Source: Actinopolyspora mzabensis (GTDB lineage: Bacteria; Actinomycetota; Actinomycetes; Mycobacteriales; Pseudonocardiaceae). Taken from it: DNA of 64,000 nt. The stretch covers positions 124,001 through 188,000 of the forward strand of contig NZ_FNFM01000001.1 in assembly GCF_900101095.1 (NCBI RefSeq). Direction: 5' to 3'. The position numbers and the translations under genes are program-made. Positions 5,361 to 22,814 of the stretch are shown here, one piece after another. A model generated the notes under the pieces. It worked only from the letters and a program-made list of their open reading frames with translations, did no database searches and was not told where the DNA came from. How positions within the stretch are numbered: position 1 is the first letter of the stretch; every line of letters begins with the position of its first letter.

Positions 5361-5386
5361 ACATAAAAACCTTGAAGGGGTTAGAA

Positions 5387-6253
5387 ATGAGCTCGGTGCA
5401 CCACCGGACCACCACCGTCGAGGGCCACGAGATCTTCTACCGCGAGGCAGGGCCGGCCGAGGCCCCCACGATCGTGCTGCTGCACGGCTACCCGACCAGC
5501 TCTTTCATGTTCCGTGAGCTCATCCCGCTGCTGGCAGGGGATTACCACGTCATCGCGCCGGACCACCTCGGCTTCGGCCGCTCGGCCGCCCCCGGAGTGG
5601 AGGAGTTCGAGTACACCTTCGACGCCCTCGCCGAACTCACCGACGGACTCCTCGACCAACTGGGGTTGGAGAGCTATGCCCTCTACGTCCAGGACTACGG
5701 CGCTCCCATCGGATGGCGTCTCGCACTCAAGCACCCCGAACGGATCTCCGCCGTGGTCACCCAGAACGGCAACGGCTACGAGGACGGTTTCGTCGAGTCG
5801 TTCTGGGCCGATGTCTGGGCGTACGCGGCGAATCCCGGCCCCGAGACCGAACCCGCGGTCCGCGCCGCGCTGAGTCACGAGGCCATCCGCTGGCAGTACG
5901 TGCACGGCGTGCCCGATCCGAGCGTGGTCAGTCCGGACACCTGGGAGCACGACTTCGCCCTCGTCTCCCGCGAGGGCAACGACGAGGTCCAGCTGGCGCT
6001 GTTCCGCGACTATCCGAACAACCGCCCGCTCTACCCGCTGCTGCACGAGTTCCTGCGCACCAGCGGAGTGCCGGTGCTCGCCGTGTGGGGACGCAACGAC
6101 GAGATCTTCGGCCCGGATGGTGCGCGGGCCTTCACCCGCGACGCCGAGGACGCCGAGGTACACCTGATCGACGGCGGTCACTTCCTGCTGGAGAGCCATC
6201 TGGACGTCGTCGCGGGCTACCTGCGCGGCTTCCTCGGGCGGGTGCTGGGCTGA
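5387..6253 (+). CDS. Alpha/beta hydrolase, haloalkane dehalogenase/epoxide hydrolase-like
   Basis: 288 residues. The oxyanion motif HGYP is at 33-36. The nucleophile elbow reads VQDYGAP with Asp103 as nucleophile, not Ser, which places it with the haloalkane dehalogenase/epoxide hydrolase branch. The likely acid lies after AVWGRNDEIF and the catalytic His in DGGHF near the end. An AAGGGG ribosome site five bases upstream supports the ATG at 5387. Substrate unknown; a cytoplasmic detoxification role is likely. Confidence 0.85.
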   Translation: MSSVHHRTTTVEGHEIFYREAGPAEAPTIVLLHGYPTSSFMFRELIPLLAGDYHVIAPDHLGFGRSAAPGVEEFEYTFDALAELTDGLLDQLGLESYALYVQDYGAPIGWRLALKHPERISAVVTQNGNGYEDGFVESFWADVWAYAANPGPETEPAVRAALSHEAIRWQYVHGVPDPSVVSPDTWEHDFALVSREGNDEVQLALFRDYPNNRPLYPLLHEFLRTSGVPVLAVWGRNDEIFGPDGARAFTRDAEDAEVHLIDGGHFLLESHLDVVAGYLRGFLGRVLG

Positions 6254-6678
6254 GTTCGCGGGCCGAATTTTCGATCGCGGCGGCCGGTTGTTCGGAGCGA
6301 ATCATGACCCCGAAGTGCGTAGGGAGGCACCCGGAGAATCGAACGAAGTCGTCTGAAATCCGGAAGTCGATTCCCCGAACACGAGCGCCACCGGGTCGAT
6401 GGAGTTTCGGAAGTGTTCGGGGCGATACCGGTCTTCCGGAACCGGCCGCGGCGGCACCATCGGTCACAGGCGCGCGAGAACGAGTGGCTCGACGCGGTGG
6501 ATTCCGTTGCGACCTTCGCGGCCGGAACGCGTTCGATCGTTCGAATCCGGCGATCGCTTGACAAGTTCGGGCGAGCCGTGACCCATTGGGTCAGCCCGCA
6601 TTGGAATGCGAGCGAAGTACTCGTGTTCGTCCCACGGCGGAATCGGAAAGACTGTTGGTCCCGCTGCCTCCGGTGAGG
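6254..6678. other. Stretch without a recognisable gene
   Basis: Short overlapping open frames occur on both strands, but none has a ribosome site, recognisable motif or family resemblance. I see nothing here that I can name. Confidence 0.5.
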
Positions 6679-6867
6679 CTACTGAGCCAGGTCGTCCAGG
6701 ACGGTGGTGACGTCGTTGGGATGGTAATAAGTACGGCCGGAGTCAGTGTAGCGGCGCCAGCCGTGCTTGTGCGCATAACGATAGATGGTCCCCTTGGGGA
6801 TGCGCCATATGGTGGCTATGTCATCGGCTGTCAAACCGGCTACCGGAACTTCACGCTCCAAGTTCAT
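6679..6867 (-). CDS. Small helix-turn-helix protein
   Basis: 62 residues. The segment LTADDIATIWRIPKGTIYRY followed by HKHGWRRY is an excisionase/MerR-like helix-turn-helix that checks presence of a DNA site, and RTYYHPNDV is the wing. Its ATG (6867) overlaps the stop codon of the upstream gene in an ATGA arrangement, so translation is coupled. Pairs of a zinc-ribbon-like protein and a tiny HTH protein are common in actinomycetes, often near secondary-metabolite clusters. A role in controlling the cluster that begins at 8.1 kb is possible but unproven. Confidence 0.75.
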   Translation of the reverse strand: MNLEREVPVAGLTADDIATIWRIPKGTIYRYAHKHGWRRYTDSGRTYYHPNDVTTVLDDLAQ

Positions 6868-7295
6868 TCTCCTTCGCTGCTCCGTATCTGACGGGCGAGT
6901 TTCGACCACCAAGTGACCGGCCACGAATGTGTGGGGGAGGTCGTGCAGACGATTTCGGAGGGTGGGATTTCGCCGTGAGGGCGAATGAGGGCGAACAGTT
7001 CGCCCGCGCAGTCGGAATCGGGGCAGTAGCCGACGCGTACGCGTCTGCCGTCGTCCGGATAGGCGATGCCGCGTGCGGTCCGCTCGAGATACCGGATCTC
7101 GTCCACCAGATCACCCGCGGCGGAATGACGGGCCAGCCAGTCGACGTGGTGGGCCAAGAAGCACGCGAGCGCGGAAATTTCCCGCACGGGTGGGGTCAGC
7201 CGCCGTTCCTCGGTGACGAGACCGGCCCAGGAGGCGAGGACCGTGAGGATGGAAGACCGTATCTCGGCGGTGGTGGCGTTGATCGATGAGTCAAT
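6864..7295 (-). CDS. Zinc-ribbon-like protein, start uncertain
   Basis: The conserved part, about 140 residues, begins with TTAEIRSSILTVLASWAG and continues through LACFLAHHVDWLARH to a CPDSDC pair and a later Cys (probable zinc ribbon), then HSWPVTWW. This is a recognisable actinobacterial family of unknown function paired with a small HTH protein. No ATG, GTG or TTG lies where the family normally starts. The nearest in-frame candidate is an ATT at 7295 or a TTG further upstream, so either the start is non-standard or the 5' end is damaged. Confidence 0.65.
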   Translation of the reverse strand: MDSSINATTAEIRSSILTVLASWAGLVTEERRLTPPVREISALACFLAHHVDWLARHSAAGDLVDEIRYLERTARGIAYPDDGRRVRVGYCPDSDCAGELFALIRPHGEIPPSEIVCTTSPTHSWPVTWWSKLARQIRSSEGE

Positions 7296-8100
7296 GTTGG
7301 CGGCTCTTCGTGGACGTTTCCGTATTACCCTTACTTCTTTCGAGCCCCCACCTCTATTACAATCGGAATACAATGTGGGTAGTATTCGCAGATTACTTGC
7401 GAGGCGTTCCCGGCACCCCCGGCACAGAAACCCCTGGTCGGTTCTGCGTGGCCCTTTCCTCCCACTTTCGCATGAGGAAGCTCGGCATAACTCGCTCCCC
7501 ACTGTACGGCCTCCAGACGTAGATTCGCTCAGCTGATCGGAAAGAAGTCGTACTCGTGCCGTGCGCTCCCGTGGACTATGCGTAACCCCGCTGCTAAGCA
7601 GGGAGCAGATCGCACCACAGCTGTACTTGTCAACCGGGAAGTCGACACGGTGTGCGGAGTAGGCTAACCAGCAGCCGATCGACGCAGCGCCTCTGCTGTG
7701 GACAGTCCTGTCGGCTGGTGCGGCCGGTGTTCGCGGATTTCCTCCCTGGGCCCGCGTTTCGGGTGTGCCCTGGTTCGACTGCCGCACCCCAAGCTGTTTC
7801 CGGGGACGGAGCGAGGACTGCTCCTTTCGGCCGAGTGAGAATTTCGCGGTTCCGGCGTAGGCAACCCCCGCCGGACCTCCGAGCGCCCGACGCGGTGCGC
7901 GCGACCGTGCGGATCGAGGAAGGGACGAGTGCCGAAAAGGATGCCTTGACAACCAGCTCGCGAAGAACGTATCAATATACTTGTTGTCCTGATTATGCCC
8001 TGATAAGAAGAAAAGCGGCTTCATCCGCGCGAATGGGTTTGTCAGTCGTAAATCGCTCCCGTGGACAGCGGCCGCTGCACGGTGCAACCAGGTGTGCGGA
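7296..8100. other. Region without a recognised gene, left flank of the biosynthetic cluster
   Basis: About 800 bases hold only short overlapping frames without family resemblance. Parts (7300-7400, 7960-8040) are clearly less GC-rich than the neighbours. A sigma-70-like promoter lies near its right end at 7946-7975, and the decayed type III PKS fragment begins after it. Confidence 0.5.
7946..7975 (+). promoter_or_regulatory. Candidate promoter for the cupin-led operon
   Basis: TTGACA (7946-7951), an 18-base spacer, then TATCAA (7970-7975). It points towards the cupin-led operon whose first intact gene starts at 8510. The decayed PKS fragment would fall in the 5' leader. Confidence 0.4.
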
Positions 8101-8189
8101 ACGCACCGGTCGGCTCGCGGAGCGGGTCGAACGTATCGGATATGTACCGGAGTCGGAACGGTCCCCGATCGTCCCGGCCGAGTTGTGTT

Positions 8190-8450
8190 CTCAGCCTTAT
8201 TACTGATGTCGACTCGCGACGGTCCGAGATTTTCGGGTTATCTCGGTCGGTTTCTCGATGTCGATCGGAAGGCGTTTCGCCCTGCTCGGGAAACTTCTCG
8301 TCGAGCACGGCGGCATCGCGAGTGTGCTCGACACCCTCGGACGCTGTTCGAGGGGTAAGCGGCAACCGCGTGGACTTCCGGCGTGTTCGCCGGTTCCGGC
8401 TCCGTACCGCCCCCCAGCGGAGGGCGTGTGGTGCTGGACCGACGACGCGT
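8190..8450 (+). pseudogene. Decayed 3' fragment of a type III polyketide synthase
   Basis: In one frame the translation includes LGRFLDVDRKAFR, matching LGEFLDVDRKMFR of the intact enzyme encoded at 17442-18509. In a second frame LLVEHGGIASVLDTL matches TLVDYGNIASAVVLDAL. In a third, GVFAGSGS matches GMIAGFGP. The matching pieces occur in the same order and spacing as in the intact gene, interrupted by frame changes. Only the last quarter of the gene is detectable; resemblance upstream of 8190 is too weak to claim. It lies just before the intact cupin, so the ancestral order was PKS-cupin. Confidence 0.8.
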
Positions 8451-8509
8451 CGAGGTGTTCGGACCGAGTTCAGCGGGTCTTGTTCGGACGGATGACGAGG
8501 AAAGCCAGT

Positions 8510-9043
8510 ATGAGCGGTCTCATTGTCCCTTCGGGGCAGGGACGAAAACTGATCACCAAGATGCAGGAAATCACTTTCAAGGCCACCGCGGCGGACGGCT
8601 CCGCCGTATCGTGCTTCGAGGTGATGGTGCCACCCGGTTTCGACGTCGGAGCGCACACCCACCAGCACTCGCAGGAGTTCTTCTACGTTTTGGAGGGGGA
8701 GCTGGACCTCCTGGCGTTCGAGCCGGTCACACGTACCGATGCGGACTGGCAGGACTGGGAGTCCACGGCGGGCGACCGCGTCGTCCGGGCCGGGCCGGGG
8801 AGCTGCATGTTCGTTCCATCCGGATGTCCGCACGCGTTCCGCAACGCCACCGCGGAGCCCGCCCGCATGCTGTTCCAGAGCTACCCCTCACCCGATCACG
8901 AGCACTACTTCGAGGAGATCTACGAGGTCTTCTCCGGGCGCTCCTCGGAACCGGACGCCGTGCAGAAGCTGCGCGAACGCTACGACATCGACCAGATCAC
9001 GCCGCTTCGTTTCGAACCACCCTCGACCTCGCACTCCCAGTGA
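8510..9043 (+). CDS. Cupin quinone-forming monooxygenase (MomA-like, THN to flaviolin)
   Basis: 177 residues with one cupin barrel. The first cupin motif is GAHTHQHSQEFFYVLEGE (metal-binding His and Glu) and the second includes PSGCPHAF. Cofactor-free or metal-dependent cupins of this kind, such as MomA, oxidise tetrahydroxynaphthalene to the quinone flaviolin beside RppA-type synthases (established for the family). A GAGGAAAG site five bases upstream fixes the ATG at 8510. It is first in the run of same-strand genes, and the aminotransferase follows after 34 bases. Confidence 0.85.
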   Translation: MSGLIVPSGQGRKLITKMQEITFKATAADGSAVSCFEVMVPPGFDVGAHTHQHSQEFFYVLEGELDLLAFEPVTRTDADWQDWESTAGDRVVRAGPGSCMFVPSGCPHAFRNATAEPARMLFQSYPSPDHEHYFEEIYEVFSGRSSEPDAVQKLRERYDIDQITPLRFEPPSTSHSQ

Positions 9044-9077
9044 GCGGCGAACACGATGTACAGCATGAGGTGCAGCG

Positions 9078-10232
9078 ATGGAGACGATTCCCCTGGTGCA
9101 GGCGAGCTTGGGCGAACAGGAGCTGGCAGCGGTCGCGGAGGTGTTCGCCTCGGGCTGGCCCGCGGGCCAGGGGCCGTGGGGGAAGGCACTGGAGGCCGAG
9201 CTGGCCGAGCGTTACGGCGTGGGTGACGCGGTCGCGCTGAGCAACTGTGGCGCCGCGCTCCACCTGTCCCTGCTCACACTGGGTGTGGCCCCTGGTGACG
9301 AGGTGATCGTGGCCGATTACACGTTCCCGGCCCCCGCGCACGCGGTGCGATACGTCGGTGCCGAACCGGTGTTCGCGGACGTGCGGGCGGATACCGGCAC
9401 CATCGATCCGAGGGCGGTCGCGGAGCTGGTCGGCCCGCGGACGGTGGGCGTGATCGCGGTGGACACGGTCGGATTACCCGCCGACTACACCGAGCTGCGT
9501 GCGATCACGGACCGACACGGACTGTTCCTCGTGGAGGACGCCGCGTGTGCCGTCGGCGCGACGTACCAAGGGCGTCAGGCGGGTGAGCTGGCGCCGCTGG
9601 CCTGTCTGTCGTTCCACGGCCGCAAGGGCGCCACCAGCGGTGAGGGTGGAGCGCTGCTCGCGGCCGATCCGGCGCACGGAGCCACCGCGCGGTTCCGGGC
9701 GTCCTTCGGTATCGGAAGTATCTTCGACCAGAGCAGGGTCGTCGGCCTGCCGGTGCCGGTGTTCGAGGAAATCGGTTACAACTACAAGCTGTCCGATATC
9801 GCCGCCGCGATCCTGCGGGTACAACTCGGGCGGATCGGTGAGCTGTTGGAGCGCCGCAGAGCCGTGGCGGCGCGCTACGAGGAACTTCTCGCCGACGAAG
9901 AACTCCTCACGGTGCCGTGGGTGCCGGAGGACCGCACGCACGCTTGGCAGTCCTACATGGTCAAGCTCGATCCGAGCGTGGACCGGGAGGGAGTCGCCGC
10001 CGACCTGCGTGCGCAGGGGATCGGTTGCGGTCACGGGACATGGGCGTGTCACCTGCAGCCCGTGTACGAGTCGAAGCGGTCCTGCCCGGTCTCGGCCGAT
10101 CTCTTCCACCGCAACCTCGCTGTTCCGATGCACGCCGAACTCACCGCGGATCAGGTGGAGCGGACGGTCGAGGTGCTGCGCGGTGCGCTTCGCGCGCACG
10201 CGCGTCCGCGAGGCGGTCGGCGGGTCGGTTAG
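9078..10232 (+). CDS. DegT/DnrJ/EryC1 family PLP aminotransferase (8-amino-flaviolin type)
   Basis: 384 residues, full length for the family. Motifs in order: GPWGKALE, ALSNCGAALHLSL, DYTFPAPAHAV, VEDAACAVGA (PLP ring Asp) and SFHGRKGATSGEGG with the Schiff-base Lys183. In furaquinocin- and naphterpin-type pathways an aminotransferase next to the THN synthase and cupin converts flaviolin to 8-amino-flaviolin. The neighbours here match that set, so this role is inferred rather than the sugar transamination usual for DegT. A rare TTA leucine codon occurs at 9474-9476. Confidence 0.85.
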   Translation: METIPLVQASLGEQELAAVAEVFASGWPAGQGPWGKALEAELAERYGVGDAVALSNCGAALHLSLLTLGVAPGDEVIVADYTFPAPAHAVRYVGAEPVFADVRADTGTIDPRAVAELVGPRTVGVIAVDTVGLPADYTELRAITDRHGLFLVEDAACAVGATYQGRQAGELAPLACLSFHGRKGATSGEGGALLAADPAHGATARFRASFGIGSIFDQSRVVGLPVPVFEEIGYNYKLSDIAAAILRVQLGRIGELLERRRAVAARYEELLADEELLTVPWVPEDRTHAWQSYMVKLDPSVDREGVAADLRAQGIGCGHGTWACHLQPVYESKRSCPVSADLFHRNLAVPMHAELTADQVERTVEVLRGALRAHARPRGGRRVG

Positions 10233-10431
10233 CGCGAAAGGGCGGCCGACCGGTGCCGGGCCGCGTTCGGCAGCGATTGTCGGTCTCAGCTGGTCACGGT
10301 ACCGCGGTGTCGCTGTGAACCATTCGCCGGTGGTTTTCCACGCGAGTCCGAACCACCGTCCCGTTCCCGATGCGCTGTCGGTGCTTGTCCCCATCCAACC
10401 GAAAAGTCGCGATCGATGCTTGGAGGAAGAA

Positions 10432-11331
10432 GTGTCGGAAACCGATGAGTTGACGAGGCTCTGCTCGGCCCTCGAAGAATCCGCCGGGTTGCTGGACATT
10501 CCCTGTTCCAGGGAGCGGATTCGGCCCGTCCTCGCCGCGTACGAGGACATGCTGTCGCAGGCCATGATCGCCTTCAGGGTGACCAGTGCCGAGGACGACG
10601 AGGGGGAGCTCGACTGCCGTGTCCTGTTCCGGAGAGACGTCGATCCGTACGGCATAGCTTCCTCGAAAGGGTTCATCGCGGCGGACGACCACCCCGTCGG
10701 TGAGCTGCTCTCGGATATTCAGCAGCGGTGCCCGGTCGACAGTTATGGTATCGATTTCGGGGTCGTGGACGGGTTCAAGAAGATCTGGGCGTTCTTTCCC
10801 GATGGTGACTTCCAGCCGCTCTCGCGGCTCGCGGAGATGCCGTCCATGCCCCGTGCGCTGACCGAGAACGCCGGTTTCTTCTTCCGTTACGGTCTGGAGG
10901 ACCGGGTGGGGCTGATCGGCATCGATTACCACGGCAGAACGGTGAACGTGTACTTCGGCAAGCTGCCGGACGAGTGTCTCGAGCCGGAGGCCATTCGTTC
11001 GATGCACCGGGAGATCGGGGTTCCGGAACCGAGTGATCAGATGCTGCAGCTCTGTGCGCAGTCCTTCGGCCTTTACTTCACTCTCAGCTGGGACTCCTGG
11101 AATATACAGCGAATTTCCTTCAGTTCCATAACGCAGGATCCGATGTCCTTTCCCGTGCGATTCGGGTCGAGGATCGAGGATTTTGTGAAGAACTTTCGGT
11201 ACGGTGTGGACGATCCCAAGATGGTCCATGCCGCCGTGAAATCGACCGGCGAGGAGTACTACAAGATCCAGGCGTACTACCGGTGGCGGCCGGCCACGGT
11301 GAATCTGACCTCGGCCGATTCCGGCGAGTAA
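10432..11331 (+). CDS. ABBA-type aromatic prenyltransferase (first copy)
   Basis: 299 residues, GTG start. Length and pattern fit the NphB/CloQ/Fur7 ABBA family: an N-terminal helix with ESAGLLDIPCSRERI, then alternating alpha and beta segments with KIWAFFP, GLIGIDYHGRTVNVYF and YFTLSWDSWNIQRI. These soluble enzymes attach DMAPP- or GPP-derived prenyl groups to phenolic rings, often without metal. A GGAGGA site at 10422-10427 fixes the start; the longer open frame overlapping the aminotransferase is spurious. A second copy lies at 15015, and the two proteins share their fold-defining motifs but are clearly diverged. Confidence 0.9.
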   Translation: MSETDELTRLCSALEESAGLLDIPCSRERIRPVLAAYEDMLSQAMIAFRVTSAEDDEGELDCRVLFRRDVDPYGIASSKGFIAADDHPVGELLSDIQQRCPVDSYGIDFGVVDGFKKIWAFFPDGDFQPLSRLAEMPSMPRALTENAGFFFRYGLEDRVGLIGIDYHGRTVNVYFGKLPDECLEPEAIRSMHREIGVPEPSDQMLQLCAQSFGLYFTLSWDSWNIQRISFSSITQDPMSFPVRFGSRIEDFVKNFRYGVDDPKMVHAAVKSTGEEYYKIQAYYRWRPATVNLTSADSGE

Positions 11332-11537
11332 GCCTCCTGGTGTGACTCCGCAGGTCACGCGCGCAGTGATGATCGCGGCGTGGACGGGAACCGCCCCGGC
11401 CCACGCACCCGGGGGAGCTGTCCGAGTGCTCGTTCCGGGTCCACCGCCCGCACCGCACCGGGCGCTTTTCGTGTCGGGTACGGGGTGCGGTGCCGACGTG
11501 CTCGGTGTCATTCGTTGCAGAAAGCAGGTGATCCGCC

Positions 11538-12086
11538 GTGGTTACTCGCGAATCACAGCTGGTGGAACTCGTGGACGAGGAGGGTGCTGCCACCGGTTCC
11601 TGTTCGGTCGCCGAGGCGCACACCGCGCCCGGCAGGCTGCATCGGGCGTTCTCGGTGCTGCTGCTGGACGATCTCGACCGCCTCATGCTCCAGCAGCGGG
11701 CCGCGGTGAAGAGCCGATTCGCACTGCGGTGGGCCAACGCCTGCTGCAGTCATCCGGCCCCGGGCCAGAGCGTGTTCGACGCCGCCGCCCAGCGGATGCG
11801 CGAGGAGATCGGAGTGGACGAGGTGACGCTGTACCAGGCCGGTGTACACCTCTACCGCGCCGAGGACCCGCGTACCGAACGGATCGAGCACGAGTACGAC
11901 CACGTCCTGGTCGGCCGGGTACCGGCGGATCCGCCGCTGCGGCTGGATTCGACCGAAGTGGCCGAGGTCCGCTGGGTGCGACCGGACCGGCTGCGTGCGG
12001 ACCTGGCCGCCAATCCGGACAGCTACGCCCCCTGGCTGAAAGGCGTGCTCACGGTGGCAACCGAGGGCTCCGATCAGCTGTCCTGA
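11538..12086 (+). CDS. idi: Isopentenyl-diphosphate isomerase type I
   Basis: 182 residues, GTG start, Nudix-fold type I enzyme. The active-site motif reads NACCSHP with Cys70 at the catalytic position, followed by the Nudix-like RMREEIGV and the metal-binding segment IEHEYDHV. It interconverts IPP and DMAPP in the cytoplasm. Here it would raise DMAPP for the two neighbouring prenyltransferases. No mevalonate-pathway gene or prenyl diphosphate synthase is in the window, so precursors must come from elsewhere (MEP pathway assumed). Confidence 0.93.
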   Translation: MVTRESQLVELVDEEGAATGSCSVAEAHTAPGRLHRAFSVLLLDDLDRLMLQQRAAVKSRFALRWANACCSHPAPGQSVFDAAAQRMREEIGVDEVTLYQAGVHLYRAEDPRTERIEHEYDHVLVGRVPADPPLRLDSTEVAEVRWVRPDRLRADLAANPDSYAPWLKGVLTVATEGSDQLS

Positions 12087-12161
12087 GCCGCCGTGCTCCT
12101 TCCCGGCGCAGGTCGGTGACGATCCGCGGGTTTGCCGAGCACCGTAAAGGAGACAGTCACG

Positions 12162-13751
12162 ATGCAGGACTCCGTAATCCACAAGTCGATTCGCAAGCAC
12201 GGCCTTCAGCTCGGCATGGTGCCGCAGTGGGCCGTGGCCAGGAACAGCTCGACGGAACTCGACGTCGACCACGAGCTCGACGCCCTCCCGGAAGTGGGAC
12301 GGCGCCTGACCGTGTCCGAGTTGGCCGAGCACGTGGACGACCTCGCCGGGCGGCTGTGGGCGGCCGGGATACGCCCCGAGGAGTACGTGGCGATCCACAA
12401 GACCGCCAACTTCGACATCTGGATGCTCGCCACCGCGGCCTCCCGGATCGGAGCGGTTCCCGTGCTGTTGTCACCGGCGCTGGACGGTGCGACCGTGGGT
12501 GCCCTGCTCGGTCGGCTGGACCGACCACACCTGCTCAGCGACGCGCACAAGCTCGACGCGATGGCGGAAGTCCCGCTGCGGGAGCTGACCGAACAGGTGA
12601 TCACAGTGGCCGGGCACTCGTCGGACGCGGTATCGCTCGGCGAACTCGCCGGTTCCTCGCGAGTGCGCCCGGTGCTCAAGGAACCGGACGAGCCCGCGAT
12701 GATCACCCACACTTCCGGGACCACCGGGATACCCAAACTCATAGTGCACACGCCCCGGAGCATGGGAACCAGGCTTCGGCCGCAGTGGTGGCTGCTCTCG
12801 TTGCTGCGGAAACGGGAGACAGTCGCGATCAACGTTCCCTACGTGCACTCCCGGACGTTCGCTGCGATGTCCTTGGTGCTGCTGAAGGCGATGCCGGTGC
12901 TGCTGATGAACGAGCCCGAGCCCGAAGAAGCAGCCGAACTGTTCGTGAAGCACCGGCCGGGGCTGATCGAAGCTCTGCCCAACACGCTCATGGCGTGGGA
13001 AAAACTCACCGAGGACCCTCGGCGACCGTTCGCGTCGATAAGATACTTCAGCAGCACGTTCGACGCGATACATCCCAGAACGATCAGCCACATTCTCGAG
13101 TCGTCCAAGCGGTTCGCGCCGCTGTTCTTCCAGATCTACGGGCAGAGCGAGGTGGGGCCCGCCGTCGGTCGGCCGTACTTCCGTGGCCACGCCCACCGAG
13201 CGAACGGGCGCTGCGTCGGTTGGACGATGCCGGGCTGCGCGAGGGTCCGCGTGGTGAGCAGGAACGGCGAACGGCCGTCGCGGAACAACCCCGGATACAT
13301 CGAGGTGGCTTGGTCGGGACTGGCGAAGACGTACCTGGGTGAGCAGGAAAGATACGACACCAACCGCTACGGGGCTTGGTGGCGCACCGGCGACATCGGT
13401 TACCGAACCAAGTTCGGCTGTCTGCACATGTTCGACCGGGAGATCGACATGATCCACGGCGTGCGCAGCACCCTGGAGGTCGAGGATCTCGTGTTGAACA
13501 GGATGGACGAGCTGGGCGAACTCGTCGTGGTGCGGGGCTCGAACTCCGAGCCGATCCCCGTGCTCTGCACGAACGACGACCAACCACTGGACCGGGACCG
13601 CTGGTACGCGGCCGTCGCGGATTTGCCGCAACTGGCCGAACCGGTCCAGATTCCGGAGGCCGAACTACCCCGGACAGCCACGTTGAAGGTGCAACGTGTC
13701 GAACTGTCCCGCCGACTCCAGGAACGAACACAAGGCGCGCCGGATGTGTGA
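12162..13751 (+). CDS. AMP-forming ligase (ANL superfamily), possibly diazotization/deamination type
   Basis: 529 residues. ANL core motifs: TSGTTGIPK (184-192), YGQSE, TGDIGY and a C-terminal Lys509 in TLKVQR. An AAGGAGA site supports the ATG at 12162. No carrier protein is adjacent. In cremeomycin biosynthesis an ANL enzyme (CreM) helps convert an arylamine plus nitrite to a diazo group, and furaquinocin biosynthesis is reported to remove the amino group of amino-flaviolin reductively. The position beside the aminotransferase makes such a role attractive. Plain acyl-CoA or acyl-adenylate formation remains an alternative. Confidence 0.8.
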   Translation: MQDSVIHKSIRKHGLQLGMVPQWAVARNSSTELDVDHELDALPEVGRRLTVSELAEHVDDLAGRLWAAGIRPEEYVAIHKTANFDIWMLATAASRIGAVPVLLSPALDGATVGALLGRLDRPHLLSDAHKLDAMAEVPLRELTEQVITVAGHSSDAVSLGELAGSSRVRPVLKEPDEPAMITHTSGTTGIPKLIVHTPRSMGTRLRPQWWLLSLLRKRETVAINVPYVHSRTFAAMSLVLLKAMPVLLMNEPEPEEAAELFVKHRPGLIEALPNTLMAWEKLTEDPRRPFASIRYFSSTFDAIHPRTISHILESSKRFAPLFFQIYGQSEVGPAVGRPYFRGHAHRANGRCVGWTMPGCARVRVVSRNGERPSRNNPGYIEVAWSGLAKTYLGEQERYDTNRYGAWWRTGDIGYRTKFGCLHMFDREIDMIHGVRSTLEVEDLVLNRMDELGELVVVRGSNSEPIPVLCTNDDQPLDRDRWYAAVADLPQLAEPVQIPEAELPRTATLKVQRVELSRRLQERTQGAPDV

Positions 13752-13796
13752 TCGAACCAGCCGGCCAGGGCGAGAGACGCGAAACGGAGCGATCCA

Positions 13797-14867
13797 ATGA
13801 CACCGGAAGCCACGCTCGCGCGGTTGCGCGAGTACATGGTGGGACCCACACGGCTCATGACCCTGCTCTCCTGCTTCGAGCTCGGCATCATCGACGCCCT
13901 TCGGGAGCGGCCCGGTATGACCTCGGCCGAACTCGGTGAGGTGGCCGGTACCAAACCGGATGCTGTCGAACAGCTCCTACATCTGATGATCAAGGAGGGC
14001 TTCGTCGCGTACGACGGGGAATCCGGTGGTTACGCTCTCGATGCGCTGGCAAAAGTGGCCGAGAGAGATCTCCGGCGGGCGCTCTCCTACATGAACATGA
14101 TCAAGGTGGTAGCGCTCAGGCAACTGTTCCATCTCCCCGAGAGCGCTCGGAACGGAATGCCCGTCGGACTCGAAGAGCTCTACGGACACGAGGGGACACT
14201 TTACGACGCGGTGGCAGAGCACGGTGACCTGCGCGAGGCGTGGGCGCCGTTGATGGACACCGTCACCGCCAACATCGACCCCTGGTACTTCGCCAACGTC
14301 GACATACCTTCCGACTCACGGGTACTGGACCTCGCGGGAAACACCGGTATCGGGGCGATCCACACCCACCGGATGAAGGCGTCTCCCGGGGTTCGTGTGA
14401 CGACCTTCGACCTGCCGGAGAAGGAGAAGGAGTGCCTGGAGAACTTCAGAAAGCATGATCTCGAGGAGCACTGCTCGTTCATCGGTGGTGACGTCTTCGA
14501 TGAGGTTCCCGAGGGCTTCGACGTGGTCCTGATCAAGCACTTCCTGGACATGTTCGACAAGGAGGACGTGTTCAAGATCCTCGAAAGGGTCAACAGCTCG
14601 CTCGAACCCGGTGGCCGGGTCAATATCCTGGTTCCGGTGTACCCGGAGGACATGACCGAATCCGACAACTACAACGTCGACTTCTTCCCGGCGTTCTTCA
14701 TCGGGTGCACCATGGGGCAGGGCGGTCCGCAGCAGATGTCCACCTACCGGAAATGGCTGGAAGAGTGCGGTTTCGAGGTGACGAAGACGATTACGAAGGA
14801 TCCCGCCGACATACCCCCGGACGTAATCCCCCGGCAGGGGATCCTGTGCGCCAGGAAGACCGAATGA
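13797..14867 (+). CDS. SAM-dependent methyltransferase with winged-helix dimerisation domain
   Basis: 356 residues, typical for the COMT/hydroxyneurosporene-type class. Residues 1-90 are the dimerisation winged helix (LMTLLSCFELGIIDALRE, then ELGEVAGTKPDAVEQLL). The SAM-binding loop reads VLDLAGNTGIG, a variant of the usual DxGGGxG, followed by the acidic TFDLPE and the catalytic-region VVLIKHFLDMF and EPGGRV. It starts 45 bases after the ligase gene. It likely O- or C-methylates the naphthoquinone core or its prenylated product; which atom cannot be read. Confidence 0.88.
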   Translation: MTPEATLARLREYMVGPTRLMTLLSCFELGIIDALRERPGMTSAELGEVAGTKPDAVEQLLHLMIKEGFVAYDGESGGYALDALAKVAERDLRRALSYMNMIKVVALRQLFHLPESARNGMPVGLEELYGHEGTLYDAVAEHGDLREAWAPLMDTVTANIDPWYFANVDIPSDSRVLDLAGNTGIGAIHTHRMKASPGVRVTTFDLPEKEKECLENFRKHDLEEHCSFIGGDVFDEVPEGFDVVLIKHFLDMFDKEDVFKILERVNSSLEPGGRVNILVPVYPEDMTESDNYNVDFFPAFFIGCTMGQGGPQQMSTYRKWLEECGFEVTKTITKDPADIPPDVIPRQGILCARKTE

Positions 14868-15014
14868 TCCCCTCGGGGACCCGAGCCTTCGAGGAACCGC
14901 CACAGCTCACCGCGGCGGAGTTCGGAAAAACCGCGAGCGGATGCCGCGATCGTGGGGAACATCGGGAGACGGATTGCCGGTCAAGAACCGGTCTGCCCGG
15001 CGAGTGGAGGACGA

Positions 15015-15941
15015 GTGTCCGGAGACGCTGATTCGAAAAAAGACGTGTACTCGGCGATCGAAAAATCGGCGGGGCTGATGAACGCGCCTTGTTCGCGGCA
15101 CAAGGTGGGGCCGGTCCTGGACGCTTTCGGTGACGACCTCGGTGAGGCCGGGATCGTTTTCAGCGTGCAGACGGGCGAGCAGCACGCGGGTGAGCTCGAC
15201 TACACCATCACGGTTCCGGCCACCGGAGACGATCCTTACACGCTGGCGCTGTCGAACGGACTTCTGGCGGAAACCGAGCACCCCGTGGGTGCCCTGCTCT
15301 CGGACATCCGTGCGCGATGCCGAATCAGTGAGTACTTCATCGACTGCGGAGTCGCCGGTGGGTTCAACAAGGCATACGCACATTTCCCGCACGATCCGCA
15401 GAGTGTGACGCGGCTCGCCGAGCTCCCGTCCATGCCGAGTGCTCTGGCCGACAACTCGGACTTCTTCGCACGCCACGGGTTGGAACAGGTGGCGATGGCG
15501 GGGATAGACTACGGCAAGGAATCGGTAAATCTGTACTTTGCCCAACTCTCCGAGGGCAGCCTCGAGCGGAGCAACATCCTGTCGATGCTTCGTGCGAGCG
15601 GTCTGCCGGAGCCCGCTGGGCAGCTGCTGAACTTCGCCAGGGGGGCCTTCAGGATTTATGTCACCCTGACCTGGGACTCTTCGGCGGTGAAGCGGATAGC
15701 CTTCGCATCGCGGATGGGCCAGGAGGAGATGGAAGCGGCGCTGTCGGAATTTCCCGTTCGGGTGAGTCCGGAGATCGAGCGGTTCGTGCGGAACGCTCCG
15801 CACACCTATTCCGGCGATCGGCTGCGAATTCTGGCCGTCAAGTCCGCTCCCGAGGGCGAGTACCTCAACTTCGGTTCCTACTATCAGATCTCTCCGCTGG
15901 TGCGGAATTTGCTGGCCGCGTCCGACGACGAACGGAGTTGA
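15015..15941 (+). CDS. ABBA-type aromatic prenyltransferase (second copy)
   Basis: 308 residues, GTG start chosen because GGAGGAC lies at 15006-15012. It parallels the first copy: EKSAGLMNAPCSRHKV matches ESAGLLDIPCSRERI, and AGIDYGKESVNLYF matches IGIDYHGRTVNVYF, with RLAELPSMPSAL against RLAEMPSMPRAL. The pair probably arose by duplication followed by divergence, which suggests two different prenylation steps or substrates. Soluble, cytoplasmic. The prenyl donor length cannot be judged by eye. Confidence 0.9.
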   Translation: MSGDADSKKDVYSAIEKSAGLMNAPCSRHKVGPVLDAFGDDLGEAGIVFSVQTGEQHAGELDYTITVPATGDDPYTLALSNGLLAETEHPVGALLSDIRARCRISEYFIDCGVAGGFNKAYAHFPHDPQSVTRLAELPSMPSALADNSDFFARHGLEQVAMAGIDYGKESVNLYFAQLSEGSLERSNILSMLRASGLPEPAGQLLNFARGAFRIYVTLTWDSSAVKRIAFASRMGQEEMEAALSEFPVRVSPEIERFVRNAPHTYSGDRLRILAVKSAPEGEYLNFGSYYQISPLVRNLLAASDDERS

Positions 15942-16403
15942 CCTCCCAACGGCCGGGAGGGGGAACACGGAACCGGGGCGCGAGCCCCGGAAGCCGACTC
16001 CGATCGAGTGGCTGACTCCCCTCGTCGGGGCGCACGTGGTTTCCGCCGCGCCCATTTCCCGCGAAGTAGGGAACGGGATCCGCCGGTGTTAGTGGGCGTC
16101 GGAACAACGAGTGGACACCGGTACACCGCCCACTTCGATACCGTGGAAGCCGATCGACCGATATCGGGCCTCGCATGTCGGGAAGACGGTCACTATCCAG
16201 TTTATCGAGCTGCTTCCGGTGCGGAGTTGTCGACAAGGCACCGGAGATATCGACTCAGCGGGTTGTCTCGGACAGTCTTGGAATCACGGACCCGTCGAGT
16301 TGTGGCAGGATCGGAGAGTGACACCTGTTACGCGACTACGCCGTGACGAGCATCGCTTCGTCGGCAACCGGTGGTCGCCCGTGAATTTAGGGAGAGAAAC
16401 CTT
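15942..16403. other. Non-coding stretch between prenyltransferase and DoxX-like gene
   Basis: About 460 bases with only weak overlapping frames. I find no family resemblance and no remnant I can identify. Confidence 0.5.
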
Positions 16404-16787
16404 ATGAATCTGGCTCTATGGATCGTTGCCGGATTGTTGGCCGTCGTCATGCTGGTCGGTGGTACCACCAAGATGTTCGTGCCGAAGGAGAAGTTGGGTG
16501 CGACCGCCCACGGTGGATGGACCAACGACTACGGTGACGGCTTCGTCAAGACCCTCGGAGCCCTGGAGTTCCTCGCTGCTATCGGTATCATTCTGCCCGC
16601 TGTGGTCGATATCGCACCAATCATGGTGCCCGTGACCGCAGTTTGCTGGGTGCTGCTGATGATCGGCGCGATGATCACGCATCTCCGTCGTCACGAGAAG
16701 TTGCCCGTCGTCGCGAACCTGATCTATCTGGCCATGGCCGTCTTCGTGGCATGGGGACGATTCGGTCCCGAGTCCTTCACCGGTTGA
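16404..16787 (+). CDS. DoxX-like small membrane protein
   Basis: 127 residues. Four hydrophobic segments (about 3-20, 50-68, 72-90, 105-122) and the early motif GGTTKMF fit the DoxX/DoxD-like family. GGGAGAG at 16390-16396 supports the ATG at 16404. Family members are linked to quinone or thiol redox in membranes. Its presence inside a naphthoquinone cluster suggests it handles quinone redox or product tolerance, but this is inference. Confidence 0.8.
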   Translation: MNLALWIVAGLLAVVMLVGGTTKMFVPKEKLGATAHGGWTNDYGDGFVKTLGALEFLAAIGIILPAVVDIAPIMVPVTAVCWVLLMIGAMITHLRRHEKLPVVANLIYLAMAVFVAWGRFGPESFTG

Positions 16788-17441
16788 TCCGGTCGGTTTC
16801 GGCTACCACAGAGGACCGGTCGACGGGTAGTGGAGAGACTCGTGAACATCGGCCCGACCGCCACGAAATCTCCGGTTCCCGCGGGTGGGTTCCAGCCACC
16901 GATACCGCGGTTGTGGCAACCCCGCCTCGCACGACTGGTCCTCGCCCCGGCAGCAGGGCCGAATGCCGCTGAACCGGCCTGCCGGGGCGATTTCGGACGG
17001 AAATCTCCGTCGCGAACCGCGTGTGCCTCGTCGTGATGGTCGAGTGTGGCGTCGACCCGCGCTCGTGGGCCGCCCTCGACTCCGATCCCGTTCGGCGCGT
17101 GATGTTTCCCCGAATTTCGTCGCTCGGGCTTGTAACCGTATCTTTCTCGCCGTACAATTAATCTCGCGAAAGGCGGCATCCTCCTCGGTGGACGCTTTTC
17201 GTCGTGTTGTTTTCGCCCTTTGTTCCACGTTTGCGAACCACGAATGATCGCTCGATTCCGTATCGGGTGATGCTCACTCGTCCCCAGAAAAGAATTCAGG
17301 AGCTGGGCGGGGTAGGCGTTCCCGTCCACGCAGCCACGCGGAAACACGTTACAGCTCATCCTGCTCCGGTCGGTACTAGCGAAATCGCAGCGAAGGACAT
17401 CACCAATCACGGGCAGAATCACCAGAAAGTAAGTTCCATAA
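16788..17441. other. Long leader region upstream of the type III PKS
   Basis: About 650 bases without a recognisable gene. GC falls after 17100. A good sigma-70-like promoter is found at 17130-17158, leaving a leader of roughly 275 bases before the PKS start. No further element is recognised. Confidence 0.5.
17130..17158 (+). promoter_or_regulatory. Candidate promoter for the type III PKS / haloperoxidase unit
   Basis: TTGTAA (17130-17135), a 17-base spacer, then TACAAT (17153-17158). Both hexamers are close to the sigma-70 consensus, and the site points at the PKS gene 284 bases downstream. Confidence 0.5.
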
Positions 17442-18509
17442 ATGCCAATATTATGCAGGCCATCCGTGAGTGTTCCGGAACATGTCATATCAATGGATGA
17501 GACACTGGAGTTGGCCGAACGAGCACACGCGGGGAAGTCGCAGCTTTCCCTGGCGTACCGATTGATCCAGAACACCGGGGTGCAGAAGAGACACACGGTA
17601 CGGCCCGTGGCGGAGACACTTCGACACCCGGGATTCGAGGAACGCAACCGCATCTACGAGCTGGAGTCCAAGAAGCGAACCCCCGAGGTGATCGAACGAG
17701 CTCTGGCTAACGCGAACCTGGCGACACGTGAGATCGACGCGATCATATACGTGTCCTGCACCGGGTTTCTGATGCCTTCGCTGACCGCGTGGTTGATCAA
17801 CACCATGGGGTTTCGCACCGATACCCGGCAGATTCCCATCGCACAACTGGGCTGTGCGGCGGGTGGCGCGGCGATCAATCGCGCCCACGACTTCTGCGTG
17901 GCCCATCCCGAGAGCAATGTTCTGATCGTTTCGTGCGAGCTGTGTTCCCTGTGCTACCAGCCCGATGACGACGACGTCGGTTCACTACTGTCCGACGGGC
18001 TGTTCGGCGATGCGGTCGCGGCCGCCGTCGTTCGAGGGAGCGGGGGTTCAGGGGTGGCATTGGAGCGCAATTCCTCCTACCTCATCCCGGACACCGAGGA
18101 CTGGATCTCCTACGATGTACGTGACACCGGATTTCACTTCCGGCTGGACCGTCGGGTGCCGGGGACGATGGAACCGCTCGCCCCGGTGCTGAACGAGTTC
18201 GCTGCAGGGCACGGTTGGGATGTCCGCAACCTCGACTTCTACATCATCCACGCCGGTGGCCCGAGAATTCTGGATGACCTCGGCGAGTTCCTCGACGTCG
18301 ACCGGAAGATGTTCCGCCACAGCTGGGCCACTCTCGTCGATTACGGCAATATCGCTAGTGCGGTCGTGCTCGACGCGCTGCGGAGGCTGTTCGAGGAGGA
18401 CATGCCGTCCGAGGGAGCTTCCGGCATGATCGCAGGTTTCGGTCCCGGGATCACCGCCGAGATGGCGGTGGGTCGTTGGAGCGTTGATTCGTCGGAAATT
18501 TCCGGCTGA
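17442..18509 (+). CDS. rppA: Type III polyketide synthase, 1,3,6,8-tetrahydroxynaphthalene synthase
   Basis: 355 residues, nearly collinear with RppA of Streptomyces. The catalytic triad falls at Cys138 (QLGCAAGG), His270 (HAGGPRILD) and Asn303 (YGNIAS), the same numbers as in RppA. Other signature stretches are LCRPSVSVPEHV, IQNTGVQ and the C-terminal GFGPGITAE. The enzyme condenses five malonyl-CoA to THN in the cytoplasm and so supplies the aromatic core for the cluster. Codon 4 is the rare TTA. A decayed copy of the 3' end lies at 8190-8450 on the other side of the cluster. Confidence 0.95.
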   Translation: MPILCRPSVSVPEHVISMDETLELAERAHAGKSQLSLAYRLIQNTGVQKRHTVRPVAETLRHPGFEERNRIYELESKKRTPEVIERALANANLATREIDAIIYVSCTGFLMPSLTAWLINTMGFRTDTRQIPIAQLGCAAGGAAINRAHDFCVAHPESNVLIVSCELCSLCYQPDDDDVGSLLSDGLFGDAVAAAVVRGSGGSGVALERNSSYLIPDTEDWISYDVRDTGFHFRLDRRVPGTMEPLAPVLNEFAAGHGWDVRNLDFYIIHAGGPRILDDLGEFLDVDRKMFRHSWATLVDYGNIASAVVLDALRRLFEEDMPSEGASGMIAGFGPGITAEMAVGRWSVDSSEISG

Positions 18510-18553
18510 GTTCCTCGGGTCCGGTTCGAACGGACGACCGGGAAGTGACGAGT

Positions 18554-18655
18554 ACGAGCGGTTTCTCGCCCTGTCGGGGCGAAGCGGAAACCGATCACCA
18601 GGATGCGGGAATCAATCCGCGGCACCACGACGGCGGTCGCGAACCGCGTCAGCGA
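18554..18655 (+). pseudogene. Decayed 5' fragment of the MomA-like cupin gene
   Basis: Downstream of the intact PKS the DNA resembles the first ~100 bases of the cupin gene at 8510. Shared exact blocks include gagcggt, tcggggc and gatcacca, in the same order and nearly the same spacing. The start codon equivalent is ACG (18554-18556) instead of ATG, and the frame is lost. It runs up to the leader of the haloperoxidase gene. It mirrors the left border, where the cupin is intact and the PKS decayed. Confidence 0.75.
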
Positions 18656-18692: not shown

Positions 18693-20240
18693 ATGGCGTC
18701 CTCCGGGAATTCTTCGGCCTCCTCCTACTCACTGCAACGCAGATCGGTGCTAGCCGGTGCGGCTACCGCGGCTCTGCTTCCGTTCGGGAGTATCGGCGTC
18801 GCCAACGCGCGTCGGTCCAGCCCTTCGGCATCGCAGACGACATCCGATTTCGACCTCGACAACGACAATTTCATCAGCTATTTGTCCGATAATTCCGACA
18901 CTTCGGCGGTATCGGATTTCATCGCTCCGATGGACGTGACCATCCTGATTCGCTACACCTGCATGGCGCACAACGCGTGGTTCGACGCGCTCGCGCCGTA
19001 CCACCCGACGGCGGTCGGTGTTTACTCGAAGCTCGGACGTCGTCCCCGAAGCGAAGCCCGCACCAACAGGAACAAGAACATCGCGGCCCTCTACGCCTGG
19101 CGCCACGTCATGCAAAGCGTGGTACCCGCCGGGATGCCGACCTATCGGGCGTTGGTCTCCTCGTTCGGGCTGGATCCCGACGACGACTCGGAGGATCCGA
19201 CCACTCCGGTCGGTATCGGGAACCTGGCCGGTAAGGCCGTCGTGGAGGGACGCCTGCGGGACGGCATAAACCAGCTCGGTGACGAGGGAGTCCGGTACAA
19301 CGGGAAGCCCTACCAGGACTACACCGGATACCGGCCCGAGAACAGTGCCTACGAGTTGCGCAACCCTTCCCGCTGGCAGCCGGAACTGCTGGAACACGGC
19401 CGTCGCCTCGGGAACGCCGATGGCGACAAGGGCATGTTCATGATCCAGGTCTTCACCACCCCGCAGCTGCGGCTGACCACGCCTTACACCTACGAGGACC
19501 CGAGCCATTTCCGCCTTACTCCCCCGCACCACAGCGATCACACCAATCGGGCCGCCTACAAGCGTTCGGTGGACGAGGTGCTGCGTGCCTCGGCCGGGCT
19601 CACCGAAGAGCAGAAGGTGAAGTCGGAGTTCTTCGACAACAAGTTCCTGGGCGTCGGGATGTCGGTCCTGGCCGCGGCCAGGAACCACGAACTGGATCTG
19701 GACGGTTGGGTGCAGCTGTTGATGGTGACCGGGGTGGCGATGCTGGACGGCCTGATCGCCTGCTGGCACCACAAGACCGGTTTCGACGCCGTGCGCCCGT
19801 TCAGCGCGGTCCAGCACGTTTACGGCGACACCGAGCTGACGGCTTGGGGCGGCCCCGGGAGGGGAACCGTCAACGATATCCCCGCCAACGAGTGGTCCAG
19901 CTATCTGAACGTGGGCAACCACCCCGAGTACCCGTCCGCCTCCACGACGGTCCTGTCCGCAGAGGCGCAGGCCGCGCGCCGCTACCTCAACTCCGACTCC
20001 CTGAACTGGTCGTACACCTATCCGGCGGGGTCGTCACTGGTTGAGCCCGGAATCACCCCCTCCAACGACCTCCGGTTCGGTTGGCGCACCTGGACCGACT
20101 TCGTGCAGGACGGCAGCGACAGCAGGGTTTGGGGCGGGGTGCACTTCTCGAAATCGGCGGACAACTCCATCGGTTTCGGCACGCAGTTCGGTGACTTGGC
20201 TTACCAGTACGTGCAGCGTCACATCGACGGCAACGTATAG
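18693..20240 (+). CDS. Vanadium-dependent haloperoxidase homologue with altered active site, Tat-type signal
   Basis: 515 residues. The N-terminus has SLQRRSVLAGAATAALL, a twin-arginine-like signal as in Streptomyces NapH proteins. Vanadate-site residues seen: Lys361 and Arg368 (KTGFDAVRP), Ser415, then Arg478 and His484 (SRVWGGVHF). In the P-S-G-H motif the Gly and catalytic His are Ala416 and Ser417. The ATG at 18693 (AGAAAGG upstream) is preferred; the earlier in-frame ATG at 18603 lies in the cupin remnant. Homologues chlorinate, cyclise or (NapH3) isomerise THN meroterpenoids. The lost His suggests a non-halogenating role. Confidence 0.88.
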   Translation: MASSGNSSASSYSLQRRSVLAGAATAALLPFGSIGVANARRSSPSASQTTSDFDLDNDNFISYLSDNSDTSAVSDFIAPMDVTILIRYTCMAHNAWFDALAPYHPTAVGVYSKLGRRPRSEARTNRNKNIAALYAWRHVMQSVVPAGMPTYRALVSSFGLDPDDDSEDPTTPVGIGNLAGKAVVEGRLRDGINQLGDEGVRYNGKPYQDYTGYRPENSAYELRNPSRWQPELLEHGRRLGNADGDKGMFMIQVFTTPQLRLTTPYTYEDPSHFRLTPPHHSDHTNRAAYKRSVDEVLRASAGLTEEQKVKSEFFDNKFLGVGMSVLAAARNHELDLDGWVQLLMVTGVAMLDGLIACWHHKTGFDAVRPFSAVQHVYGDTELTAWGGPGRGTVNDIPANEWSSYLNVGNHPEYPSASTTVLSAEAQAARRYLNSDSLNWSYTYPAGSSLVEPGITPSNDLRFGWRTWTDFVQDGSDSRVWGGVHFSKSADNSIGFGTQFGDLAYQYVQRHIDGNV

Positions 20241-21841: not shown

Positions 21842-21921
21842 GGCCGTGCCGGATTCAACCGCCGAAGGGCTCGGGGCCGAAGCGGCCCCACGCCACGAAG
21901 GCGGTGCCGTTGCGAGGCGGG

Positions 21922-22317
21922 TCAGGGCAGCGGTGGTAGATCCAGTGGTCGCACCCAGGTTTTGAGGCACCCGGCGATGGCGGGTACGTCGAGCTGCCCC
22001 TCGGCGACATCGACGACCAGGGCCACGACCGTCCCCTGATCGGCAGGGTGCAGGTGACAGCCGTTGAGCCGGTAGAACACATCGGTGGCCGACCAGGCAG
22101 TACGTTTGTTGCCGTCGAGGAACGGATGGTTCCGAGCGAGGCCGTGCAGCGGGGCCGATGCCTTTTCGCTCAACGTGGGGTAGGCGTCGCCACCGAACGC
22201 ACTGGCCTGTGGACGCAGCACGGCTCCTTCGAGCAGCCCGAAATCGCGAAGCGCGTCGGAACCGACAAAGTGGGCGTTCATCGCCTGCACGTCGTCGGCG
22301 GTAAGAAACCAGGTCAC
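21922..22317 (-). CDS. doc: Doc-type toxin (Fic/Doc family)
   Basis: 131 residues, GTG start. The Fic-fold signature reads NHPFLDGNKRTAW, matching HxFx(D/E)GNKR. Length fits Doc ('death on curing') toxins, which phosphorylate EF-Tu in known cases. It starts 4 bases after the stop codon of the antitoxin gene, a classical toxin-antitoxin operon order. All key residues are present, so the toxin looks functional. Confidence 0.9.
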   Translation of the reverse strand: MTWFLTADDVQAMNAHFVGSDALRDFGLLEGAVLRPQASAFGGDAYPTLSEKASAPLHGLARNHPFLDGNKRTAWSATDVFYRLNGCHLHPADQGTVVALVVDVAEGQLDVPAIAGCLKTWVRPLDLPPLP

Positions 22318-22584: not shown

Positions 22585-22814
22585 CGGCCGCGTCGAGGTG
22601 AGGCGCGATCCGGGTAGCCGCCACTGCCGTAGCGGGTCAACCGCGGGAGGACTCGGATCCGAAACGGGCCACGCGTGAAGGCGGCCCTCGTCGGGTAGCG
22701 CGGATTCGCGACGACGGCGGTCCGCTCCTCGCGACGGAGACGGGGATCATCGCGCCGCCCGGCAGCGACACCCAGCAGCGATACCCGGCGGCGATCCCCG
22801 TGGAATCGATCCCC

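Follow-up and report, generated by a model that had tools for sequence, protein, structure and literature searches.

A biosynthetic gene cluster of Actinopolyspora mzabensis carries two homologous copies of the junction between a type III polyketide synthase (PKS) gene and a cupin gene, one at each end of the cluster, and each copy has lost a different gene: the PKS is dead on the left and the cupin is dead on the right. The best explanation, and in our view a very probable one, is that a stretch including the PKS-cupin junction was duplicated and then underwent reciprocal loss (tandem-duplication-loss, as in the SNAP model). A first-pass annotation of the 64,000-nucleotide stretch of DNA analyzed here (the window) had proposed duplication of the junction with reciprocal loss, and the two junction copies, with their opposite losses, bear this proposal out.

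Gene Content and Order of the Cluster

All parts of the cluster lie on the plus strand. An intact cupin gene of the fur2 type (8510-9043) is followed by a DegT-type aminotransferase of the fur3 type (AT; 9078-10232), an ABBA prenyltransferase (PT1; 10453-11331, start not fixed), an isopentenyl-diphosphate (IPP) isomerase of the NUDIX family (idi; 11538-12086), an AMP-dependent ligase (12132-13751), a methyltransferase (OMT; family Methyltransf_2; 13797-14867), a second ABBA prenyltransferase (PT2; 14952-15941), a DoxX-like membrane protein (16404-16787), the intact, relocated copy of the type III PKS (17442-18509) and a vanadium chloroperoxidase-like gene (VCPO; 18693-20240). The isomerase has the same place after PT1 in L032 (Phytohabitans) and in L096 and L100 (Streptomyces), and the VCPO follows PT2 in L059/L103. 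The intact PKS is about 77-83% identical in amino acids to the PKSs that adjoin the closest cupins in relatives. Together the type III PKS, cupin, DegT aminotransferase and ABBA prenyltransferase make up the fur-type gene set, from which we infer, reading the chemistry from gene families only, a cluster for a prenylated naphthoquinone-type (fur-type aminonaphthoquinone) meroterpenoid. The PKS is predicted from this gene set to make tetrahydroxynaphthalene, and the product would be an aminonaphthoquinone derivative. Several mechanically called open reading frames around 5372-8087 and 9474-11511 were set aside, having no family match and running in frames other than the coding one.

PT1 and PT2 are related to each other (about 44% amino acid identity) within this one cluster; a survey of MAR4 Streptomyces found no single cluster with paralogous prenyltransferases (PMC4650096). 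To the right of the VCPO, two inverted fragments of a DoxX 3' end (21849-21904 and 22633-22777, minus strand) flank an ORF with a Fic domain (21922-22317, minus strand). One DoxX fragment is kept in G005, a congener, without the stretch that lies between the window's two. DoxX may have moved by copying and loss as well.

Two Copies of One Junction

In a blastn comparison, 8221-8569 and 18258-18611, both on the plus strand, share 248 identities over 360 bp (69%), with an E-value of 2e-28 locally and 1e-25 when the window is compared with itself. When 8150-8620 is compared with the whole genome (5.0 Mb), the right junction is the one further match (E-value 6e-26). The first-pass annotation had described junctions that align along about 400 bases, including the spacer and the cupin start, and had proposed a pairwise DNA alignment as a check. 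The alignment found does include the spacer (8459-8509 in the left copy, 18510-18552 in the right). None of 300 shuffles reached the score of the PKS remnant, and none of 1000 reached that of the right-hand spacer and cupin start.

We relied on profile searches, because plain Smith-Waterman comparison of the whole left and right regions forced long-gapped and uninformative alignments. The left PKS 3' remnants score 41-92 bits, against a maximum of 5.1 bits in reversed controls (0.79 Mb). For the left remnants in the window and in G005, profiles derived from nine relatives that have PKS-cupin reach 41-49 bits, and those derived from the PKS of the clade itself reach 80-92 bits. The spacer and cupin stub of the right copy have matches in just three places, the left junctions of the rearranged clusters, namely those of the window, G005 and Saccharomonospora saliphila (37, 37 and 22 bits); a search against the PKS-cupin junctions of relatives gave no match. 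Alignment and profiles thus agree with the earlier description of a decayed PKS 3' end before an intact cupin on the left and an intact PKS before a decayed cupin on the right, and its coordinates proved accurate (PKS remnant 8218-8458, cupin ATG at 8510, PKS stop at 18509, cupin remnant from 18553).

Decay of the Left PKS and the Right Cupin

The left PKS 3' end (8218-8458; PKS nucleotides ~814-1055), recognized by blastn, profiles and the tree described below, has no open PKS frame and is followed by the spacer and the intact cupin. Between the window and G005, differences in this remnant are spread flat over the three codon positions (16/77, 13/76 and 17/76), while those in the intact PKS number 1/76, 0/75 and 11/75. 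The even spread indicates that the left PKS copy is unconstrained DNA; by this pattern it is dead and evolving without codon constraint. The remnant and the intact PKS differ at 27/76 third codon positions, near the 22/73 that separate the PKSs of the window and S. saliphila (G206/L041), so the low identity of 69% fits age and neutral decay.

To the left of the 3' end, a weak piece from the middle of the dead PKS can be placed (PKS nucleotides ~470-570; in the window 8165-8217, nucleotides ~480-555). It falls below significance in the window (-4.0 and 2.4 bits with the profiles) and is supported by pieces at the corresponding position in G005 (8.8-15 bits) and in S. saliphila (16-17.6 bits; PKS nucleotides 468-559), against a null maximum of 5.1 bits. 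The piece in S. saliphila is significant by profile and not by plain Smith-Waterman, under which its score is reached by 24 of 300 shuffles. S. saliphila keeps this middle piece and has no PKS 3' piece, and the window and G005 have in common the loss of about PKS nucleotides 570-815.

On the right, the cupin 5' remnant (18553-18640) has ACG in place of the ATG start codon, as it does in G005 and S. saliphila. The ACG common to all three clusters suggests a single event, probably before the genera split. In S. saliphila the cupin stub scores 148, narrowly above the highest of 1000 shuffles (137).

Gene Order in Related Clusters

Which gene order is the ancestral one? The rearranged order of the window recurs in G005 and S. 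saliphila, whose cupins are 94% and 83% identical to that of the window in cupin searches; many other clusters have cupins at 64-77%. Within the genus, the cluster occurs in only 2 of 10 genomes. Among the 39 loci with both genes, the PKS lies directly before the cupin in 27 and the cupin directly before the aminotransferase in 38, and two further loci of the family (L112, L113) also have the PKS directly before the cupin. In the furaquinocin cluster, fur1, fur2 and fur3 encode a type III PKS, a cupin and an aminotransferase in that order (PMC9686526). The comparison with related clusters, most of which have the three genes adjacent, sustains the first-pass proposal that PKS-cupin-aminotransferase is ancestral. 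It also shows that the position of the PKS is labile in these clusters and that the adjacency of cupin and aminotransferase is nearly fixed.

L096/L100 have the order PKS-cupin-AT-PT1-idi-DoxX(-)-AMP ligase-OMT and, PKS and DoxX apart, are collinear with the window from AT through OMT; L059/L103 have PKS-cupin-AT-AMP ligase-OMT-PT2-VCPO. The order in the window is that of these four clusters with the PKS shifted from the head to a position before the VCPO; DoxX differs too.

The PKS lies elsewhere in the three rearranged clusters and in nine Streptomyces loci (L030, L092-L095, L097-L099 and L102). The nine are placed elsewhere in the cupin+AT tree and the PKS tree, which are broadly congruent, and this indicates that PKS relocation happened more than once. 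A footprint was sought in the nine and none was found (best E-value about 0.05-0.8); among the relocated-PKS clusters compared, it is kept in the clade of the window only. A scan of the full family in 390 genomes yielded no further rearranged cluster, and no genome was found with two intact PKS-cupin units in tandem, an arrangement that the first-pass annotation had suggested might survive in some strains. Two cupin copies per genome occur in G613 (C41, C33) and in G753 (two places); the pair in G753 lies near both chromosome ends and probably reflects terminal repeats.

Each of the three rearranged genomes has a conserved stretch next to the cluster (6660-7691 in the window, minus strand). 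It is 57% identical in amino acids to its counterpart in S. saliphila over 344 residues, and the ORF tested has no Pfam match. Homology to S. saliphila stops at this stretch and at the VCPO end of the cluster, as if the cluster had moved between genera as a cassette. Plasmid matches all came from Streptomyces or Embleya, at 71% identity or less.

Common Descent of the Two PKS Copies

In a tree built from the PKS 3' end (238 columns), a branch with support 99/96 separates the two remnants and the clade's three intact PKSs from 36 other PKSs. This placement argues that the duplication was internal to the lineage and that the two PKS copies are internal duplicates descended from it. Could the intact PKS and the cupin stub have come instead from another cluster by horizontal transfer, replacing the resident PKS? 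An identity of 69% is low for a recent duplicate, and such clusters are known to exchange genes (PMC4650096). By the third-position counts given above, the low identity fits age and neutral decay; the remnant and the intact PKS are mutual closest relatives among the PKSs sampled, and the spacer is lineage-specific. We consider such an import improbable.

The placement of the remnant relative to the S. saliphila PKS is not clean, a point in favor of import and one that counts against duplication with reciprocal loss and against a single event before the genera split. In the same tree the remnants group with the PKSs of the window and G005 to the exclusion of the S. saliphila PKS (99/99), despite the common gene order of S. 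saliphila. A topology in which the three intact PKSs stay together is weakly rejected (AU test, p-value 0.03), and individual sites are nearly balanced (9 for and 6 against). Gene conversion or compositional attraction is a possible cause of this grouping.

A Promoter-like Element at the Operon Head

A 57-bp element at 7944-8000 (plus strand), conserved at the operon head, has the sequence features of a promoter: TTGACA and, after an 18-bp spacer, a TATA-like hexamer (TATCAA/TATACT). In the window it lies directly left of the PKS remnant; G005 and S. saliphila have it at the corresponding place, and in L096 and L100 it stands 475 bp upstream of the PKS (50-56 bits for the window and L096/L100). 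One copy occurs in each of seven loci, and none was found elsewhere in 0.79 Mb or in reversed sequence. In canonical clusters that have the element, it heads the PKS operon. Since the element stands upstream of the PKS in L096/L100 and is still at the left end here, the PKS moved and the head stayed. We infer that the element is an active promoter, in which case transcription of the cupin and the genes that follow it probably starts at the old PKS promoter and the dead PKS serves as their leader. In L092 (11986-12040) and L093 (11077-11130), in the orientation with the cupin on the plus strand, the element lies about 300 bp upstream of the cupin, and the PKS is inverted and downstream on the other strand. 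These two loci apparently represent a separate loss of the PKS from the operon head, with the promoter left behind.

The stationary head element bears on another reading offered by the first-pass annotation, in which a segment was excised as a circle and reintegrated after opening at the PKS-cupin junction, so that the gene order was rotated. In L032 the AMP ligase and OMT precede the PKS and the prenyltransferases follow the AT, an order that amounts formally to a rotation of that in the window and first suggested rotation of the whole segment; given L096/L100 and L059/L103, a move of the PKS alone is simpler, and the whole-segment rotation was rejected. Conservative reintegration of a circle would leave no duplicated junction, and here the junction is duplicated. 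The ancestral head element did not move with the segment and still adjoins the dead PKS, the VCPO has kept the right-hand position that it has in L059/L103, and L096/L100 are collinear with the window, PKS and DoxX apart, without any rotation. Excision and reintegration of a circle is thus very improbable, the least credible of the readings weighed here.

A Probable Duplication with Reciprocal Loss

Under duplication and reciprocal loss, the events would have been as follows. The ancestral cluster would have had the order promoter-PKS-cupin-aminotransferase-PT1-idi-AMP ligase-OMT-PT2-(VCPO). A stretch comprising the PKS, the spacer and at least ~90 bp of the cupin would have been duplicated, placing a second PKS-cupin junction between PT2/DoxX and the VCPO. 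The PKS at the head would then have decayed to fragments by deletions, and the second cupin would have lost its start codon and almost its whole body. The net effect would be that the PKS went from head to tail, where it adjoins the VCPO, and the block from cupin to methyltransferase stayed put. The position and strand of DoxX are not explained by one event.

How long was the duplicated stretch? It may have been the whole block, duplicated in tandem; a single deletion from about cupin codon 30 to just before the VCPO would then finish the process. It may instead have been a short, dispersed copy of ~1.3-1.7 kb, carrying the PKS and the first ~100 bp of the cupin into the gap before the VCPO, after which the original PKS decayed. 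This version of the duplication leads to the same outcome without an 8-9 kb repeat or any further step, and with fewer losses. It is in keeping with a cupin stub that has no neighboring remnants of other duplicated genes, with the absence of the head element upstream of the moved PKS, and with the lack of any similarity, in the search made, between the DNA upstream of the dead PKS and that upstream of the moved one. Profile searches covering every intergenic stretch detected no stubs of AT, PT1, AMP ligase, OMT or PT2 inside the cluster, and so do not distinguish the two versions. Beside the cupin remnant there is no trace of a second AT, prenyltransferase, AMP ligase or OMT, so duplication of the entire segment may have occurred but is not demonstrated; the statement in the first-pass annotation that the segment between the borders once existed as a repeat or circle is not supported as a necessity. 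The full tandem version must account for the missing second AT-to-PT2 block by one clean deletion. Tandem duplications are frequent (PMC7055797), and no transposase or insertion signature was seen that would provide an evident agent for a short copy. On these two grounds we lean somewhat toward tandem duplication of the whole block and regard the short dispersed copy as possible and rather less likely.

Comparison with Known Systems

The cluster resembles the furaquinocin cluster (fur1-fur2-fur3-fur4) and related naphthoquinone meroterpenoid clusters in having a type III PKS, cupin, aminotransferase and prenyltransferases, and differs from the furaquinocin cluster in that its PKS is at the far end, adjoining a vanadium chloroperoxidase.

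Change of gene order by duplication and asymmetric loss is a known mechanism. In the SNAP model, a duplication is followed by asymmetric loss, giving a new gene order (Brandis and Hughes 2020; PMC7055797). Its authors point out that direct empirical evidence was lacking and that no unique feature marks an event once it is complete; the trace they suggest is pseudogenes with matching active copies (PMC7055797). As in the model, each copy of a duplication here has had a different gene inactivated, which fixes a new order, and the pseudogenes at this locus have active counterparts, like the proposed trace. The unit here is at most ~9 kb, whereas SNAP concerns duplications from tens of kb upward that are held by selection. 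Changes in the order of operon clusters in Gammaproteobacteria and Bacilli have likewise been attributed to intrachromosomal duplication and asymmetrical loss (Brandis 2021; PMC8046335). That study infers the mechanism from gene order and cannot fix it precisely, whereas here decayed pieces can be read at both ends. No relevant account of reciprocal-loss footprints in biosynthetic clusters turned up in literature searches.

We give about even chances to a fuller reading, in which the locus is a natural fossil of a SNAP/TDRL-type event, with its reciprocal stubs, its polarity, the old promoter left behind and separate further decay in two genera, and in which the relocation changed the wiring of the cluster, so that the tailoring genes remained on the old PKS promoter and the PKS was paired with the haloperoxidase. 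Changes of gene order in bacteria are usually inferred from the states before and after; here the event is frozen part-way. It is readable base by base and common to two genera, which makes its timing, the order of the losses and the consequences for the promoter testable. Among systems of this mechanism, the locus is an unusually legible example at the scale of a gene cluster.
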